Assembly (NCBI RefSeq): GCF_010672455.1
Contig: NZ_JAAHGO010000012.1
Span: 753,808 to 817,807 of the forward strand
Direction of reading: 5' to 3'
DNA length: 64,000 nt
Source of the DNA: Okeania sp. SIO2C9
GTDB taxonomy: Bacteria; Cyanobacteriota; Cyanobacteriia; Cyanobacteriales; Microcoleaceae
Positions 34,446 through 52,147 of this stretch are shown piece after piece (position 1 is the first letter of the stretch; each line of letters begins with the position of its first letter). A program made the position numbers and the translations under genes. The notes below the pieces were generated by a model, which was not told where the DNA came from, did no database searches, and saw only the letters and a list, made by a program, of their open reading frames with translations.

Positions 34446-34766
34446 GGGGCTGTGGCTCAGATGGATAGAGCAAGCGCCTCCTGAAGTATCGGGCACCATG
34501 TGAGGAAACTCCGTGAGTGAATGTGGTCAAACTCAAGGAAGCCTAAGTCTATTATTTTGTAGATATGGTAATCTTGAGCCAAGCTTTACCTAATTATTGG
34601 TAAAGAAGGTGCAGAGACTAGAGTTTTAAGGAGAAATAAAATTCTTTTTAAACTAGGCCACCACCTAAAGCTATTTTAGAGCTATGGTGAAGGGATAGTC
34701 CAGAGAGTGGGGAAACTTACACAAATCTGAAGCGCTAGGTCGCGCGTTCGAATCGCGCCAGTCCCG
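34446..34766 (+). tRNA. tRNA-Arg(CCU), interrupted by a group I intron
   Basis: The exons (34446-34482 and 34730-34766) fold into a complete cloverleaf. Acceptor GGGGCTG pairs with CAGTCCC. D arm is GCTC/GAGC. Anticodon stem is AGCGC/GCGCT with loop CUCCUAA, anticodon CCU. The variable loop is AGGTC. T arm is GCGCG/CGCGC around TTCGAAT. The discriminator is G and CCA is not encoded. The intron enters directly after the last anticodon base. It reads AGG codons for arginine. Confidence 0.95.
34483..34729 (+). ncRNA. Group I self-splicing intron in tRNA-Arg(CCU)
   Basis: 247 nt, no reading frame. The splice-site rules of group I are met: the 5' exon ends in U (of anticodon CCU) and the intron ends in G. 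Conserved core elements are visible in order: P-like AATCTTGAGCCAAG, the R/Q-like GGTGCAGAGACTAGA, and S-like AAGGGATAGTCCAGAG. Such introns are known in tRNA-Arg(CCU) of some cyanobacteria and alphaproteobacteria. Splicing should be autocatalytic with guanosine as cofactor. Confidence 0.93.
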
Positions 34767-35161
34767 TTAGATAAGCGTTCGGCACTCAGCAGTCAGCAGT
34801 CAGGAGAAATGTTTAGAAGGGGATTTTAACCCCTCAGCTTCCGGTATAGAAACCGGGGGTTTTAACCCAAGTAGGGGCGAATGGCCATTCGCCCCTACAA
34901 GCTGAATGCTAAAAGCTAATAGCTAGTTAAAAAATTTAATCATTACCGAAAAATTGTGGTTTAAGGCATAGCCTTTGAAGGAGATAATAAAGAAAAATTT
35001 TGATGATTAGTCAATCCTCTTAATTTATCAGAAAAAGTAATTCTAAATTCTTAATTCTTGAACGAGGATAATAAAGAAAAATTTTGATGATTAGTCAATC
35101 CTCTTATTTGTAAGAAGAAGTAATTCTAAATTCTAAATTCTAAATTCTAAATTCTTGAACT
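34767..35161. other. Repeats between tRNA-Arg and the DUF938 gene
   Basis: CAGCAGTCAGCAGTCAGG repeats, the full GGGGCGAATGGCCATTCG palindrome near 34872, then two partial copies of the ACCGAAAAATTGTGG repeat in tandem (34944-35110), ending in AATTCTAAATTCTAAATTC runs. No gene is seen. Confidence 0.6.
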
Positions 35162-45886: not shown

Positions 45887-46246
45887 ATGCAAAGTCAGAA
45901 TATAAATTTCATCCAAAATCTGTTCCAAAGCCGCTTAACTACTCTGGAGCATATCTTAAAGTCAGCTCAAACTCATTTCTGTGATGGCGAACAGTTCCTT
46001 CAGAAGCGCATTGTGGCTGATATGTTTCCTTTTGGTACACAAATTGCTTTCACCTGCAATCAACCACGCAACTTTGCTCTGTGGTGTGACAGCAAGTCTG
46101 CGAATAATCTAGACCCAGAAGTCACATCTCTAATTCAGGCATACGAACACATAACAAACACCAAGCAACTTCTTTTAGGCATTAACGTTGAAGACGCAAA
46201 GCTAGCTGAGATTACACGCGTTGATTTAAGCCAGGGTTTCTATTGA
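45887..46246 (+). CDS. DUF1993-like protein, C-terminally truncated
   Basis: 119 residues. The DUF1993 pattern is visible: an N-terminal helix (FIQNLFQSRLTTLEHILKSA), then QKRIVADMFPFGTQIAFTCN and, further on, LAEITRVDLSQGFY. DUF1993 proteins usually run to about 165-170 residues, and after QGFY they continue with a LELPG-type segment. Here a TGA follows directly, and the DNA becomes a GGAGTAATGAGTAATGAG repeat. The protein has thus lost its last third. It may still be expressed, since the Shine-Dalgarno sequence is good, but folding is doubtful. Confidence 0.65.
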   Translation: MQSQNINFIQNLFQSRLTTLEHILKSAQTHFCDGEQFLQKRIVADMFPFGTQIAFTCNQPRNFALWCDSKSANNLDPEVTSLIQAYEHITNTKQLLLGINVEDAKLAEITRVDLSQGFY

Positions 46247-46618: not shown

Positions 46619-49600
46619 TCATGAGTCAATGTCTAGAGCGCTTTGCAGACAAGCCTTCATTTTTTCAGCTAAGATGCGCACACTGGGTTCTGAGAGAATC
46701 TTACTATGAGCGCCATGAATGTTATAAACCTCTAGTCCTTCTTCAGCTATACCTTCCCATCCATTTGTAGGATCGGAAGATGTTATAGTTGTATGTTTAG
46801 CTTTAAATAGAGTTATTTTACCCGGATATGAATGTGGTGTATAGCATTGAGGAGATACAGACGGAGAATTTATTTTGTGATGCTTTTTAGTAACATTAGA
46901 AGTTGATGACCTCATAGATAGATATAATTTTTTAGGAAATTTGGTAAACAACTTAGTTAACAATTTTTTGACCTTGTCAAATAAGTAAGGCAGTCTCTCT
47001 TGAGGTTCAAATAATAGAAAATTACCCCAATGAATATCGATATTTCGTATCACATTTAAAATTAATCTCTGGAAACGAGAAATATTGTTCCAGTTTGGGG
47101 GAAGCTTAACATTTGGATGTACAGTATCAAACAAAATTAACTTGGCAACCGTTTCACCCTGTGCATGAAGCTGTTTTGCCATTTCAAAAGCTACATTTCC
47201 TCCATTAGATACACCTAATAATATGTAAGGTCCTTGGGGTTGAAAAGCTTGCATTTCTTGAATGTAGTGAGCTGCTAAATCCTTCATAGGAGGTAGAGAA
47301 ACTTTTTCTTCTTTCCCTTTTTTTGCCGCTAATCCATAATTTAACCCATAAAAGGGTTGTCTTTGACCCAAATAACTTGCCAAAGGTCGGTAAAAACTTA
47401 AACCTTCACCGAGAAGATGAATAGCGAATAAGGGTGTTTTATCCCCCAGTGGTTGAATAGGTACTAATGATTGCCAAGATGATGACCATTTCTCTTCAGA
47501 TAAAATCTTCGCTAGTTTTTCAACTGTTGGAGCTTGAAACAGAGCAGCTAAAGGTAAATCTTTCTGAACAGTTTTTTCAATTTCAGCCAATAGTTTAACT
47601 GCCAAGATAGACTGTCCTCCTAAATCGAAGAAATTATTATAGATTCCGATAGGTTGGACTCCCAAAACTTTTTCCCAAATCTGAGTCAGTTGGCGTTCTA
47701 ATTCGTTGCGAGGAGCAACATAGGTATGTTCTAACGTTTGCTGAATGAGTGCATCCATCCATTTGATGATGGCATCAAATTCACCATCTTCCAAACTCTG
47801 TTTAAGTTGTAAACGTTTAATTTTACCCGTTGCTGTTCTCGGAATCGCTGATTTTTCAGTTAAAACTATATAATTGGGATTTATACCCAAGGTTTGAGTT
47901 ACTTTTCCCCGAATTTCTTTAGCTAATTTGGCTAATTGACTTTCTTCCGTAATTAGTGTATTGAAGAAAATAGCTAACTCATCAGTATCACTTTCTTGTT
48001 GTCGAATATTACAGGCAACAGTATAAGAAGGTTCAACCCCTTCAACTGCTTCGACTACTAATTCAATTTCCTGACAGGAATAATTCTTACCATTGATAAT
48101 GAGGATATCTTTTTCTCGTCCTGTCACCGTGAGGTAATTCTGATTGAGAAATCCTAAATCTCCTGTATTGAACCAACCATCTTCTGTAAAAAGTGTTCTA
48201 TTCAATGTTGGATTATTGTAATATACACCAGTTCTGTTTACACCCCAAATCTGAATACGACCAACCTCACCCTCATTGAGTAAATTATTCTGATCATCAA
48301 CAATACGAATTCCACAACCCGGTAAAGGTTTACCAATTTGTACAAATTGTTCGCCACGCTGGTTATAACCCATTGCTATCCACTCACGGTTACTGGCAAC
48401 AACCCCCGTTTCAGAAAGACCATAACCAACATTCAGGACATCCGCACCCAATCCCAATGGTTGTAACGTCTGTAAAAAAGAACGGCAAGTTTGAGGCACA
48501 ATTTTTTCTGCCCCTAAACCAATGGTTTCGATTGAAGTCAAATCCCAGTGAGGTTCGGAAATTTGCTGAATTTGCTCCATAATCTGTGTCATGGCAAAGT
48601 TTGTTAATACGCTGCCATTCACTTTGTATCGATCGACAATACCTAACCAAAGCAGAGGGTTTCGGAAAAAGCGTTCTGCAGGAAGATAAAGGGTTTGACC
48701 TGATTTCGGGTTAACTATACCAAATCCTGAAGCATTATCAAAAGGAACCCAAGTCAAGGAGCAATAAGACGGATCGGATTTTTCATTTCCTGACAAAAAT
48801 TGGCTAATAACTGTGACAGCATCAAAAGAAATCAGTTTTGGAGTACCTGTTGTACCGGAACTGGTGAGCAATAGAGCTAAATCTTCAGGTTGGTTGGAAT
48901 GGAAATTCTGACTGGGAGCAAATTCTTGAGATTTTTCGATAGTTAGTAGGTTAGGGGTAGAATCTTTGAGAATATCGTTAATTGTTTCTGTCAGATTCTT
49001 GGTGGTCAAAATTACAGGATCATCTAACCCTTGCCAAACCTGTTGCAGTTTAGCATTTTGAGAAGTTGCGTTAGAACTATTGGGAGAAATTGCCGCAGGT
49101 ACAGCGACAAAACCACCTAAAAAACAACTCCAAACCGCTGCTACAAAATCATGACAATGTTCAAGATGAATGAGAACAAAGTCTCCAGGAGATAAACCTT
49201 GTTCTTGTAAGTAACCGAGTAAGGTTGTAGACTGTTGCCAAAGCTCACCATAAGTTCGGGTTAATCCTTGATTTTCCCTCAAATCAATAAGTTTACTTTC
49301 AGAAAAGCGGTCGATTTTTTGTTTTAAGGTTTCTGCTAGGGAGGATACGAACTCAACAGTTCCCGTCACTTTTTCCCCGTAGGCGATCGCTGCTGCTTTT
49401 TCTTCTATTCCATTCTTAGAGAACCCATCTAAACCTAAACTGGTTTGTAATTGAGTGTCAATTTGTTTAAAATAATCACAACGCTTGATGTGATTTAACG
49501 TTGCTTCTTTAACTGTCAAAAATTGAGCAGTTCCTGGTCGTAGATTATAAAGAAAAGACCCATTTCGTTGAAAGTCTAGGTCAGGAACATCTTTAGGAAT

Positions 49601-50953
49601 TTGCAGTTGAGCAATTTCTTGGTTAATTTCAGCAAGTTGTCTTGCTAATTCATTAAAAAGATCCTGACCTACAGGGGTGAATTTGGCATATTTGCGCAAT
49701 TGCTCAAGTCCGATTTGCAGTTGCAAAGGAATCTTAATAAGTTGACTTTTGGTAAAGTCTAAAAGTTCGCCTGTAGGATTTGCTCGATAAACATTTAACC
49801 AGAACTGAGCAACGGGTGTATAAACATATATGGCATGGAAAATCCCTCGTAGGGGACGCAAATCCAAACGCCAAGGCGAATAATACAAATTGTTAGCTTG
49901 AGCATCTTCGACTGAATCTAACAAAAGAGGGCTATTTTGTTCAATTAAGAATAAGCGGTTGTGGTGAAACTCGTGAATAAAGTTATCAGCTAATCTATAG
50001 GGATTTTCAATCACGCTACAAATTAGAGCGCCAGAAAAATCTGAGCTACTGAGGTTGGTGAAATTTCCTACATCTATTGGTTTGAGAGCTAATACCTGCA
50101 TAAAATAATGCAATTGCTCGAAAGTCTGAGGATGATATTGCTCAATCAATGCTAATCCGTCTTTAACCAGGGTGACATATTGCCCCTGATACTTCATTCC
50201 TGCCTCAACAACTGCTTGACCATCTGGAAAAGCTGGAGAATTAAAACAATAAGGTTGAAATCGTAATTCCCGACTGGAAAGTTGAATGGTTGGGCATTTG
50301 CCTACTTTCAAATTCTCATCAGCTAATGTGGTATTTGGGGTTAATTCTAGGGTTTGTTTGTTGTTTGCAACTACAACTTCTAATTTTTCTGAATTAATAC
50401 CGTAAATTTCTATTGTTCCATTCCCTTCTAGGTAAAGAGATGTACCTGGAATCGCTACTGGTAAATGACAAATTAAAGGGGTTTTAAATTGATAGCTTTG
50501 CTGAGACAGAAAACCGTAGGCGATCGCAAAGAGCTTAAATTGATTGAGGTGAAGGATTAGTGCTTGAAGAGGTATTTTTTGTTGAATTGCCTGACAATAT
50601 TCCTGAGTAACGAGGGGTAAAGGTTTCTTAGTTATGGTTGCTGTAACTAAATCGAATGCTAATAGACACCAATGATTGGCAAAAGGATCGGACCAGATTA
50701 AGCTAAACTTTTCTGATGCTTCTGTAGCGATTTTATGATAAACTTCTAAAAATTCTTTAATCTCTGAAGTGTCTTCCTGAGAATCCGCAAATTTAGGGTG
50801 ACGCATCAGGACTTGTTGTATGGCGATCAGGGTATTAATATTTTGCTGTTGGCGATCATCAAAAAGTTTAGGGTCAGTCCAAAAAAAACTTGATTGATCA
50901 AATTTATATTGTTCTTCACTTATTTTTAGGTCTAGCTCTGTGTTGATTGACAT
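46619..50953 (-). CDS. Multidomain HEXXH - adenylation - carrier - thioesterase protein
   Basis: 1444 residues. Residues 1-500 form a HEXXH-motif domain of the kind linked to peptide modification (TIGR04267-like): the metal site is NFIHEFHHNRLFL (His327, Glu328, His331), followed by LYYSPWRLDLRPLRGIFH and VAQFWLNVY. Residues 540-1065 are an adenylation domain: LLTSSGTTGTPK, NVGYGLSETG, WFNTGDLG, GREKDILIINGKNYS and Lys1044 in RTATGKIKR. Residues 1075-1150 are a peptidyl carrier domain, with phosphopantetheine Ser1115 in FFDLGGQSILAVK. Residues 1165-1440 are a type I thioesterase: Ser1249 in GVSNGGNVAFE, Asp1276 in LFDTVHP, and His in NIHGAHSKIL. There is no condensation domain. Two precursor-like peptide genes lie just upstream on the same strand. 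I infer an enzyme that activates and attaches or releases an acyl or amino acid group on those peptides. Confidence 0.9.
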   Translation of the reverse strand: MSINTELDLKISEEQYKFDQSSFFWTDPKLFDDRQQQNINTLIAIQQVLMRHPKFADSQEDTSEIKEFLEVYHKIATEASEKFSLIWSDPFANHWCLLAFDLVTATITKKPLPLVTQEYCQAIQQKIPLQALILHLNQFKLFAIAYGFLSQQSYQFKTPLICHLPVAIPGTSLYLEGNGTIEIYGINSEKLEVVVANNKQTLELTPNTTLADENLKVGKCPTIQLSSRELRFQPYCFNSPAFPDGQAVVEAGMKYQGQYVTLVKDGLALIEQYHPQTFEQLHYFMQVLALKPIDVGNFTNLSSSDFSGALICSVIENPYRLADNFIHEFHHNRLFLIEQNSPLLLDSVEDAQANNLYYSPWRLDLRPLRGIFHAIYVYTPVAQFWLNVYRANPTGELLDFTKSQLIKIPLQLQIGLEQLRKYAKFTPVGQDLFNELARQLAEINQEIAQLQIPKDVPDLDFQRNGSFLYNLRPGTAQFLTVKEATLNHIKRCDYFKQIDTQLQTSLGLDGFSKNGIEEKAAAIAYGEKVTGTVEFVSSLAETLKQKIDRFSESKLIDLRENQGLTRTYGELWQQSTTLLGYLQEQGLSPGDFVLIHLEHCHDFVAAVWSCFLGGFVAVPAAISPNSSNATSQNAKLQQVWQGLDDPVILTTKNLTETINDILKDSTPNLLTIEKSQEFAPSQNFHSNQPEDLALLLTSSGTTGTPKLISFDAVTVISQFLSGNEKSDPSYCSLTWVPFDNASGFGIVNPKSGQTLYLPAERFFRNPLLWLGIVDRYKVNGSVLTNFAMTQIMEQIQQISEPHWDLTSIETIGLGAEKIVPQTCRSFLQTLQPLGLGADVLNVGYGLSETGVVASNREWIAMGYNQRGEQFVQIGKPLPGCGIRIVDDQNNLLNEGEVGRIQIWGVNRTGVYYNNPTLNRTLFTEDGWFNTGDLGFLNQNYLTVTGREKDILIINGKNYSCQEIELVVEAVEGVEPSYTVACNIRQQESDTDELAIFFNTLITEESQLAKLAKEIRGKVTQTLGINPNYIVLTEKSAIPRTATGKIKRLQLKQSLEDGEFDAIIKWMDALIQQTLEHTYVAPRNELERQLTQIWEKVLGVQPIGIYNNFFDLGGQSILAVKLLAEIEKTVQKDLPLAALFQAPTVEKLAKILSEEKWSSSWQSLVPIQPLGDKTPLFAIHLLGEGLSFYRPLASYLGQRQPFYGLNYGLAAKKGKEEKVSLPPMKDLAAHYIQEMQAFQPQGPYILLGVSNGGNVAFEMAKQLHAQGETVAKLILFDTVHPNVKLPPNWNNISRFQRLILNVIRNIDIHWGNFLLFEPQERLPYLFDKVKKLLTKLFTKFPKKLYLSMRSSTSNVTKKHHKINSPSVSPQCYTPHSYPGKITLFKAKHTTITSSDPTNGWEGIAEEGLEVYNIHGAHSKILSEPSVRILAEKMKACLQSALDIDS

Positions 50954-51531
50954 TACAGCTCCATAAAATTGATAGAATGACTTTACTTTTACATTTTAAT
51001 ATTATAGGAACGTTGTATACAACGTCCCTATTGGATGATATATAATCCGGCTAAAAAGTTGTCATTGCGACGGTTACTCCGTGGAAGGTTTGCGGAGCAT
51101 TCCGGAATGGATAGCAATCTCGTCAACCCCTGAGATTGCTTCCTATCGTCGCAATGACTTAATCACTAAAGTTGTCATTGCGACTGGAACGGAGTGGAAG
51201 GAAGCAATCTCGTCAACCCCTGAGATTGCTTCCTATCGTCGCAATGACTTAATCACTAAAGTTGTCATTGCGACTGGAACGGAGTGGAAGGAAGCAATCT
51301 CGTCAACACCTGAGATTGCTTCCTATCGTCGCAATGACGAGTGTTCAACCGGATTCTATATTAATCACTAATCATCCGGATTTGATCCGAGATTTTAATA
51401 AGCGACTTTGTATACAACGTCCCTACTCTTTGAGTGGATTACTTATCCATAGTTATTCATGGTTGAAGCAACTTCATTTGTCAAATTAATTGAGCCATTT
51501 TAATCTCGGTCTATTTGGGAGAAGTCTAATC
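50954..51531. other. Leader region between the small peptides and the large enzyme
   Basis: Apart from the hairpin array at 51057-51338, this contains ACGTTGTATACAACGTCCCT palindromes at 51009 and 51410, and the end of the duplicated peptide unit (GATTACTTATCCATAGTTAT). There is no further gene. The last 40 bp are AT-rich and hold the leader of the large gene. Confidence 0.5.
51039..51360. repeat. GTCATTGCGAC hairpin array inside TATATAATCCGG / CCGGATTCTATA ends
   Basis: Three units, period 90 bp in the last two (GTTGTCATTGCGACTGG at 51171 and 51261). Each is an inverted pair of GTCATTGCGAC and GTCGCAATGAC with GAAGCAATCTC / GAGATTGCTTCC inside. The first unit carries an extra TTTGCGGAGCATTCCGGAAT insertion. 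The outer ends are those of the TATCAAATCCGG family. Confidence 0.8.
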
Positions 51532-51711
51532 CTAAGAATAGCTACCCATCTCACCACCATAGCTGTAACCAGCCAGGCCACCACCACCGCGAGCAACGAA
51601 GCGAACAGCAGAGTTGCTATTTTGTTGTTGCCCTTCCATCTGCGCAATTAAATTACTGACTTGCTCTTTTTGCTCTTGGTTGAGTTGGCTATAGTTAATG
51701 CTGTTGATCAT
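51532..51711 (-). CDS. Putative precursor peptide A (Gly/Tyr-rich C terminus)
   Basis: 59 residues starting ATG at 51711, with AAAGGAAATA as Shine-Dalgarno sequence. The first ~41 residues (NYSQLNQEQKEQVSNLIAQ, then GQQQNSNSAVRFVARG) are almost identical to those of peptide B. The last 18 are different (GGGLAGYSYGGEMGSYS). A conserved leader with a variable Gly-rich end is the pattern of ribosomally made, modified peptides. There is no signal peptide or membrane helix. It is placed between peptide B and the large HEXXH enzyme, same strand. Modification is inference; I recognise no named family. Confidence 0.75.
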   Translation of the reverse strand: MINSINYSQLNQEQKEQVSNLIAQMEGQQQNSNSAVRFVARGGGGLAGYSYGGEMGSYS

Positions 51712-51964
51712 TATTTCCTTTGATTTGGGTATTTTTAATGACGACTATAATCTCAGAAAAATACAAAAGCAATAGGAAATGAGAATCTTCACCCAATCTT
51801 CATAAAACTAGCTTACTATATCCGAAAATTTACTGATATTCATGGTAGGAATTTAGAGATCAAATTTTAATATGGGACGTTGTATACAACGTCCCTATTG
51901 TTTGACTGGGTTACTTATTCATAGGTATTAATGGTTGAACCAGCGACATTTCTTAAATTATAAA
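51712..51964. promoter_or_regulatory. Spacer between peptides A and B (duplicated leader)
   Basis: The DNA upstream of peptide A (AAAAGCAATAGGAAAT and TCTTCATAAAACTAG) resembles that upstream of peptide B. The DNA following B (ACGTTGTATACAACGTCCC, GTTACTTATTCATAG) resembles that following A. Promoter, gene and 3' flank were duplicated as one unit, so each peptide probably has its own promoter. Confidence 0.6.
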
Positions 51965-52147
51965 TTATCGGCCGCCAAACTCACCGCCCATAGAACCGCC
52001 AGAACCCGGGTTCACGATAGTCTCACCGCGAGCAACGAAGCGAACAGCAGAGTTGCTATTTTGTTGTTGCCCTTCGATCTGCGCAATTAAATTGCTGACT
52101 TGTTGTTTTTGCTCTGGGTTGAGTTGGCTATAGTTAAGACTTTTCAT
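51965..52147 (-). CDS. Putative precursor peptide B (Gly-rich C terminus)
   Basis: 60 residues starting ATG at 52147. Leader MKSLNYSQLNPEQKQQVSNL and GQQQNSNSAVRFVARG are shared with peptide A. The C-terminal part is GETIVNPGSGGSMGGEFGGR, rich in Gly and Ser. The leader is amphipathic and Gln/Asn-rich. The only differences in the leader are conservative, whereas the C terminus shares almost nothing with peptide A but Gly residues. Paired with the downstream HEXXH-adenylation-carrier-thioesterase gene, this suggests substrate peptides. A structural or stress role is an alternative. Confidence 0.75.
   Translation of the reverse strand: MKSLNYSQLNPEQKQQVSNLIAQIEGQQQNSNSAVRFVARGETIVNPGSGGSMGGEFGGR

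Follow-up and report, generated by a model that had tools for sequence, protein, structure and literature searches.

This work concerns a small gene cluster in the cyanobacterium Okeania sp. SIO2C9, whose genome measures 10.9 Mb. By the window we mean the whole stretch of DNA analysed, 64,000 nucleotides of contig NZ_JAAHGO010000012.1 (positions 753,808 to 817,807 of the forward strand). The cluster lies on the minus strand, and in the coding direction its order is peptide A, peptide B and then an enzyme of 1444 amino acids (aa) that joins an oxygenase domain to adenylation (A), carrier and thioesterase domains. The initial annotation, made from the sequence alone, proposed that the enzyme modifies the two peptides. 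The features it described are confirmed, including the coordinates, the lengths of peptides and enzyme, the shared strand and the positions of the enzyme's motifs; its interpretation is partly supported. The features are as follows.

51965..52147, minus strand: peptide A gene, 60 aa; leader ending in ...SAVRFVARG, Gly-rich tail with GGEFGG (open reading frame, ORF; copies in Okeania hirsuta locus L020; leader dN<dS)
51532..51711, minus strand: peptide B gene, 59 aa; leader as in peptide A, tail with GGEMGS (ORF)
46619..50953, minus strand: fused enzyme, 1444 aa, with alpha-ketoglutarate (aKG)-HExxH, A, carrier and thioesterase domains (ORF, profiles)
49649..50164, minus strand: aKG-HExxH (TIGR04267) domain, aa 264-435; HEFHH at 327-331, SPWR..LRP..GIFHA (NCBIfam, alignment)
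47768..49303, minus strand: A domain of StsA/McyG type by sequence grouping, about aa 551-1062 (limits set by hand); Ala at the 235 equivalent (PFDNASG), Leu after the A5 Gly (YGLSE)
47507..47692, minus strand: carrier (PP-binding) domain, aa 1088-1149, Ser1115 (Pfam)
46664..47434, minus strand: thioesterase domain, aa 1174-1430, Ser1249 (Pfam)

The peptides and the fused enzyme

Four copies of the peptide can be compared, two in each of two species, at 72-90% identity to peptide A. Their first 41 residues form a nearly invariant leader, and their C-terminal ends differ in length and sequence. The initial annotation had called these ends unrelated. Near-identical leaders are indeed present, but the ends are not unrelated, since GGE[FM]G is common to all four. 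This motif occurs three times in 3811 other small ORFs from the fetched loci, two of the three being the same peptides in L033; GEGG occurs five times in the same set. The leader has a lower rate of non-synonymous (dN) than synonymous (dS) change in six of six pairs, from few changes (1-6 synonymous and 1-7 non-synonymous), and the values for peptide B of the window against that of O. hirsuta are 0.062 and 0.333. A purine-rich stretch of the AAGGAAA or AAAGAAA type stands upstream of every one of the four starts. The copies in two species, the constraint on the leader and the upstream purines suggest that these ORFs are more than chance. Judged by sequence, the locus has the makings of a ribosomally synthesized and post-translationally modified peptide (RiPP) system: putative small precursors with a conserved leader and a variable core, and an adjoining modifying enzyme. 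The two intergenic gaps, one on either side of peptide B, also hold near-identical repeats (GTTGTCATTGCGAC...) and palindromes GGGACGTTGTATACAACGTCCC, seen by eye at 51081-51371 and 51874-51895.

The enzyme matches TIGR04267, the model for aKG-HExxH-type peptide beta-hydroxylases, at 93.9 bits against a cut-off of 40, which bears out the family membership given in the initial annotation. In Pfam it matches AMP-binding (128.8 bits, aa 562-912), thioesterase (78.1) and PP-binding (50.3), all above their cut-offs. The motifs stand where they had been placed: HEFHH at 327-331, SSGTTGTPK at 698-706, LGGQS ending in Ser1115, and GVSNGG containing Ser1249. Asp1276 and His1416 are presumably the partners of Ser1249 in the thioesterase, whose best solved relative is 7crn, a structure named as a nonribosomal peptide synthetase (NRPS) protein. 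Pfam finds no condensation, ketoreductase (KR) or polyketide synthase (PKS) domain in the protein, and the absence of a condensation domain, noted at the outset, stands.

Among solved proteins the HEXXH domain is closest to ChlH (8s5f, E 7e-16) and next to 22nu, a chain that bears the name radical SAM core domain-containing protein. Twelve relatives were aligned, and the HE and the last His of HExxH, one Leu, one Arg and an RP pair are invariant in them; the His of GxxHA is replaced by Gln in the G282/G265 type. The window domain has HExxH, the R..RP segment and the HA pair intact. Which of its residues bind iron and alpha-ketoglutarate we infer, and by analogy the domain is likely an Fe(II)/alpha-ketoglutarate peptide oxygenase. 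An AlphaFold2 model of aa 1-540 was built from an alignment of 2 sequences, had a mean pLDDT of 33.7 and is not used here. TIGR04267 enzymes are now described as alpha-ketoglutarate-dependent iron oxygenases that act on peptides (PMC12636437, PMC13060819). Among characterised members the hydroxylated residue is Asp, His, Gln, Phe or Pro, and those tested modify RiPP precursors (PMC12636437, PMC13060819, PMC12707348). PflC and PosC additionally cleave the peptide backbone oxidatively (PMC12636437). HExxH oxygenases are a recently recognised family whose reactions are described as unpredictable at present (PMC13060819).

The A domain scores 316 bits against 6ulw (StsA), 307 against 6ulx and 306 against 4r0m (McyG), and the next solved protein scores 136. 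A domains that use amino acids follow a rule of Asp at position 235 and Pro after the A5 Gly (PMC11253843). In the window domain these positions hold Ala and Leu; StsA has Ile and Met there, and McyG has Val at the first of them. In a tree of 27 rows, in which long branches are flagged, the A domains of the window, O. hirsuta and a third Okeania genome (G244) cluster together (89/92). They fall inside a set of nine rows (96/99), apart from the amino-acid A domains; the other six rows are domains of KR-containing proteins and of shorter proteins, three each. The three best matches in the host's own genome lie in NRPS proteins that also bear condensation, KR and carrier domains. The A domain thus groups by sequence with the StsA/McyG type, which uses keto, hydroxy or arylpropionyl acids, and any of these three kinds may be its substrate. 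The initial annotation allowed an amino or an acyl acid. Of these, loading of an amino acid was dismissed on positions 235 and A5 and on the tree and is unlikely because the domain groups with the keto-acid and McyG domains; a small acid of the non-amino type is favoured. The top NCBIfam matches also include models for fatty acyl-AMP ligases (FAAL), a reading we dropped because, among solved proteins, every FAAL stays below half the score of StsA or McyG.

Eight neighbouring genes were scanned: an ABC ATPase, a RibD-like protein, DUF7380, DUF1993, a GTPase, one protein with no match, a GNAT protein and an SSF symporter. No radical SAM gene is among them. The initial annotation had noted the lack of a radical SAM enzyme and a transporter nearby; the first holds for these eight genes, and so does the second for a recognised peptide exporter, yet the eight include an ABC ATPase and a symporter. 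Elsewhere in the window a group I intron (RF00028, 64.3 bits, 34470-34722, within 34446-34767 on the plus strand) appears by eye to split the anticodon loop of a tRNA gene (CTCCT, Arg-like); ARAGORN reported zero tRNA genes across the window.

Distribution and unfused relatives

The TIGR04267 family is uncommon in these bacteria. It was found in 5 of 339 genomes of the phylum (4 above cut-off) and 27 of 388 of the order (26 above cut-off), and each search also gave a match below cut-off in one of the 14 control genomes, Haloferax volcanii. With enzyme residues 1-540 as query, three of five genomes of the genus match (the host's own, O. hirsuta and, weakly, G244), as do 9 of 243 genomes of the order, the host included. 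Okeania hirsuta PAB10Feb10-1 (L020, G243) keeps the order of the genes, with two peptides followed by an enzyme of 1444 aa; identity to the window enzyme is 93% for residues 1-540 and 94% for the full length. Peptide A finds matches in 2 of 61 genomes of the family. A leader profile built from the four peptides matched 8 of 388 genomes of the order, two of which were retained after inspection, and both carry the fused enzyme, as the initial annotation would lead one to expect; they are also the two genomes in which that enzyme was found. The six weak matches were dismissed by eye as antitoxin-like 66-aa ORFs (two genomes) and as fragments or unrelated proteins (four).

Genome G244 is informative in two ways. 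At L127 (8694-9122, minus strand) all that it keeps of a window-type enzyme is a remnant of the C-terminal 146 residues, 78% identical and abutting the GTPase gene. This remnant sits between genes like that at 45887-46246 of the window and the GTPase gene, the peptides and the remaining enzyme are absent, and an ABC gene is present at this site without the module. A single deletion can explain the loss, which does not thereby prove a functional link. At another locus (L032) the same genome holds the best match to the window's adenylation-carrier-thioesterase (A-T-TE) half, at 834 bits and 47% identity over its full length; O. hirsuta aside, the next best match over five genomes reaches 418 bits and 39%. 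Upstream on the same strand, going away from the A-T-TE gene, come a gap of 0.77 kb, a flavin adenine dinucleotide (FAD)-dependent oxidoreductase, a weakly YcaO-like gene (22.2 bits, cut-off 25.7) and a stand-alone HEXXH gene (63.7 bits). At 0.8 kb beyond the HEXXH gene is a candidate peptide of 58 aa, followed by an NRPS gene.

A second order, that of genome G459, has HEXXH relatives in 8 of 200 genomes. At five of these eight loci (L030, L106, L107, L108, L112) the next recognised gene past the HEXXH gene is an adenylating enzyme. The fullest case is genome G722 (L112, 7326-9041, plus strand), where four tandem peptides with three GEGG apiece precede the HEXXH gene (83.7 bits), which is followed by an 845-aa protein and then a weakly ATP-grasp-like one (23.9 bits, cut-off 27). 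The 845-aa protein has an AMP-binding match of 86.2 bits and a carrier match of 17 bits, below the cut-off of 20.8; we would read it as A-T-(TE-like). In G007 (L031, 7855-11806, plus strand) five tandem peptides with QAKI near their ends come before a HEXXH gene and a cyanophycin-synthetase-like ATP-grasp gene. A scan for paralogous small ORFs over 38 HEXXH loci accepted arrays in eight (the window, L020, L031, L082, L087, L088, L109, L112) and in none of the remaining 30. Two AKIG peptides lie close to the HEXXH gene of L109. The peptide pairs of L082, L087 and L088 stand at loci with radical SAM and HEXXH genes, and most carry GKEPIAW and then DFSSH near their ends. A protein of 338-353 aa without a Pfam match follows the HEXXH gene and ligase in L107 (12071-13087) and L108 (3520-4581).

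In the window's own order there are 30 HEXXH places, of which 28 were inspected (G037:C80 and G193:C72 were omitted). An adenylating enzyme is present at three, namely those of the window, O. hirsuta and G244, and 14 of the other 25 have a radical SAM neighbour or fusion that matches a ChlB-type protein at more than 200 bits. The HEXXH tree has 32 rows, with near-copies excluded beforehand and L110 omitted. In it the window domain falls among radical SAM-associated domains, and those of G244 and G722 group in other parts of the tree; the supports, 82/89 and 86/79, are below the starred level. Because the HEXXH domains of the window and G244 group apart while their A-T-TE halves are mutual closest relatives, the sequences suggest that the pairing of HEXXH and A domains arose repeatedly. 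If the tree is right, more than one origin fits a functional coupling, and the oxygenase half of L112 would be an analogue rather than an ortholog. The plasmid collection has 16 records with HEXXH homologs, and six were inspected (two without annotation). A blast search found no adenylating enzyme in the 16 kb around HEXXH on these six. A locus on a Streptomyces plasmid (L094, 4533-9125, plus strand) carries an ORF of 1530 aa; its N-terminus looks P-loop-like by eye, and it matches HEXXH at about aa 1157-1354.

A proposed RiPP maturase and its rivals

Our reading, which we hold at about even confidence, is that the fused protein would act as a RiPP maturase: it would oxygenate a Gly-Glu-Gly core and pass an acid from its carrier to the peptide. 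The two small genes would encode precursors, each with a leader of about 41 residues and a Gly-rich core containing the conserved Glu of GGE[FM]G. The enzyme would bind the peptide through the leader, and its aKG-HExxH domain would oxygenate a core residue, likeliest the conserved Glu or a neighbour; both steps are proposed because of family membership. The A domain would adenylate a small alpha-keto, alpha-hydroxy or arylpropionyl acid and load it onto Ser1115 of the carrier. Thioesterase Ser1249 would then pass the acid to the peptide, plausibly as an ester on the new hydroxyl or else onto an amine, a transfer which we infer from the fusion. The parts of this reading do not deserve equal trust. 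That the peptides are the enzyme's substrate is probable. Whether the A-T-TE half acylates them or instead makes a small molecule of its own is evenly balanced in our judgement. The modification site and the acid, as proposed, are doubtful. Where the initial annotation left a choice between joining an acid to the peptides and trimming them, trimming becomes the minority option, since the family consists of oxygenases (PMC12636437, PMC13060819), though PflC can also cleave backbones.

In favour of the maturase reading are the TIGR04267 match with its motif positions intact, the RiPP precursors on which tested members act, the presence of the enzyme in both genomes with the leader, the gene order kept in O. 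hirsuta, the unfused sets of genes in G244 and G722, the adenylating enzymes next to HEXXH at five of eight loci in the order of G459, the suggested repeated pairing and the place of the A domain beside those of KR-containing NRPS proteins. Several observations weigh against it. Peptides and enzyme were found together in two species, a small number, and the two are close relatives. The precursors have no Pfam match, and their best NCBIfam match is 9.8 bits to a lipoprotein model with a cut-off of 100. Neither a leader peptidase nor a dedicated peptide exporter was recognised in the eight neighbours. G244 has an A-T-TE and a HEXXH gene without window-type peptides, its 58-aa candidate is unmatched in the other genomes among 61 of the family, and the 0.77 kb gap between the FAD gene and the A-T-TE gene holds a short transposase-like fragment (by eye). 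With an NRPS gene upstream as well, this A-T-TE could serve another role. L030 and L106-L108 form a single HEXXH clade and are not independent, and the small-ORF scan saw no paralogous peptide array in them. In G722 the C-terminal part of the 845-aa protein is weakly TE-like (hhalign probability 34%/20%, with a GFCLAG elbow that has Cys), the protein was found in no other genome among the 200 of its order, and it does not match the window's A-T-TE at E 1e-60. No adenylating enzyme was found in the inspected stretch at 25 of the 28 HEXXH places in the window's order, and because only three have one the pairing is a minority state there. Finally, keto-acid A-T-TE enzymes make small molecules without any peptide (PMC10316625).

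This last point leads to the strongest rival, which we consider unlikely but serious. It holds that the A-T-TE half dimerises or releases an aryl-alpha-keto acid, that the oxygenase tailors the acid, either on the carrier or once released, and that the peptides are bystanders or regulators. The domain order and the keto-acid type of A domain are those of quinone and furanone synthetases, and the fungal quinone synthetase PpaA1 even combines A-T-TE with a fused Fe/aKG dioxygenase (PMC10316625). L030 and L106-L108 likewise pair HEXXH with ligases and show no peptide array. Yet the aKG-HExxH enzymes in the literature consulted here act on ribosomal peptides. Both Okeania species have also retained two peptides beside the enzyme, and L112 combines similar parts with four GEGG peptides. 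It is quite improbable, in our view, that the peptide itself is the acid. In this case the HEXXH domain would oxygenate or oxidatively cleave the core, the core carboxylate would be adenylated and loaded onto the carrier, and the thioesterase would cyclise or release the peptide. Thioesterase domains can cyclise peptides, and an NRPS protein is the best solved match of this one. However, the A domain aligns over its full length to domains that use single small acids, and we know of no A domain of this clade that accepts a 60-mer. In favour of such a route, PflC is a HEXXH enzyme able to cut the backbone (PMC12636437).

The hydrolysis of a truncated peptide by PflC (PMC12636437) also speaks for a protease that trims the peptides and has nothing to do with the A-T-TE half, and HEXXH is the signature of zincin proteases. 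We find this very improbable, given the TIGR04267 match, the positions in common with ChlH and the fusion or pairing of HEXXH with adenylating enzymes. The least probable of the four alternatives takes both peptide ORFs for accidents of repeat-rich intergenic DNA, which would leave the locus with a lone orphan enzyme. The ORFs are short and without a family match, and repeats do occur at 51081-51371 between peptide B and the enzyme, but chance would have to account for four copies in two species with dN<dS, frames that survive changes in core length, the upstream purine-rich stretches and a GGE[FM]G common to all four.

Comparison with known systems

The maturase reading can be set beside what is described. 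ChlH, BpmH/BipH, PflC/PosC and PesO resemble the window system in having small precursors, and the window HEXXH domain is above the TIGR04267 cut-off and aligns to ChlH 8s5f. They differ in that the accessible portions of PMC12636437, PMC12707348 and PMC13060819 describe no fused A-T-TE; the partners named there for enzymes of the ChlH, BpmH, PflC and PesO types are radical SAM, MNIO, nitroreductase and Asn-synthetase-like proteins. StsA (6ulw/6ulx) and McyG (4r0m) share the high A-domain scores, the lack of Asp at 235 and the lack of Pro after the A5 Gly, but the window protein is without a condensation, KR or PKS domain. The quinone and furanone synthetases CorA, HapA1 and PpaA1 and the bacterial RalA and EchA, a set taken from their description (PMC10316625), share the A-T-TE order and keto-acid logic, and PpaA1 the fused Fe/aKG domain too. 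In the window, however, the oxygenase is at the opposite end and of the HEXXH family, and ribosomal peptides lie alongside. The comparison with FxSxx-COOH/FxsB loci made in the initial annotation holds through the TIGR04267 domain alone, for the window peptides have no FxSxx end and the eight neighbours no radical SAM gene.

The annotation's statement that the arrangement matches no known system is right as far as the exact fusion goes, yet similar kits occur with their parts unfused. L032 and L112 have HEXXH with A-T-TE or A-T-(TE-like) and small peptides as in the window, and L031 has HEXXH with a cyanophycin-synthetase-like ATP-grasp and small peptides. These kits differ in having separate genes, other leaders and extra genes: in L032 a weakly YcaO-like one and an FAD-dependent one, in L112 one that weakly resembles ATP-grasp. 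No published counterpart of the architecture appeared among the matches listed, which cover titles and abstract openings and leave most subscription journals outside.

Only tentatively do we suggest that one polypeptide joins RiPP and NRPS logic: its aKG-HExxH domain would make a hydroxyl on a Gly-Glu-Gly core, and its keto-acid-type A-T-TE half would esterify this group, or cap an amine, with a non-amino acid. If true, this would be a depsipeptide-like acylation of side chains on a ribosomal peptide, for which we found no description; the parts needed for it also exist as separate genes in two cyanobacterial orders. Two assembly logics would then meet in a single protein of about 1.4 thousand aa, which can be expressed along with two very small putative substrates, and the fusion offers a concrete, testable case in which a building block would pass from a carrier to a ribosomal peptide. 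It might also account for the adenylating enzymes that adjoin HExxH genes in some cyanobacteria.

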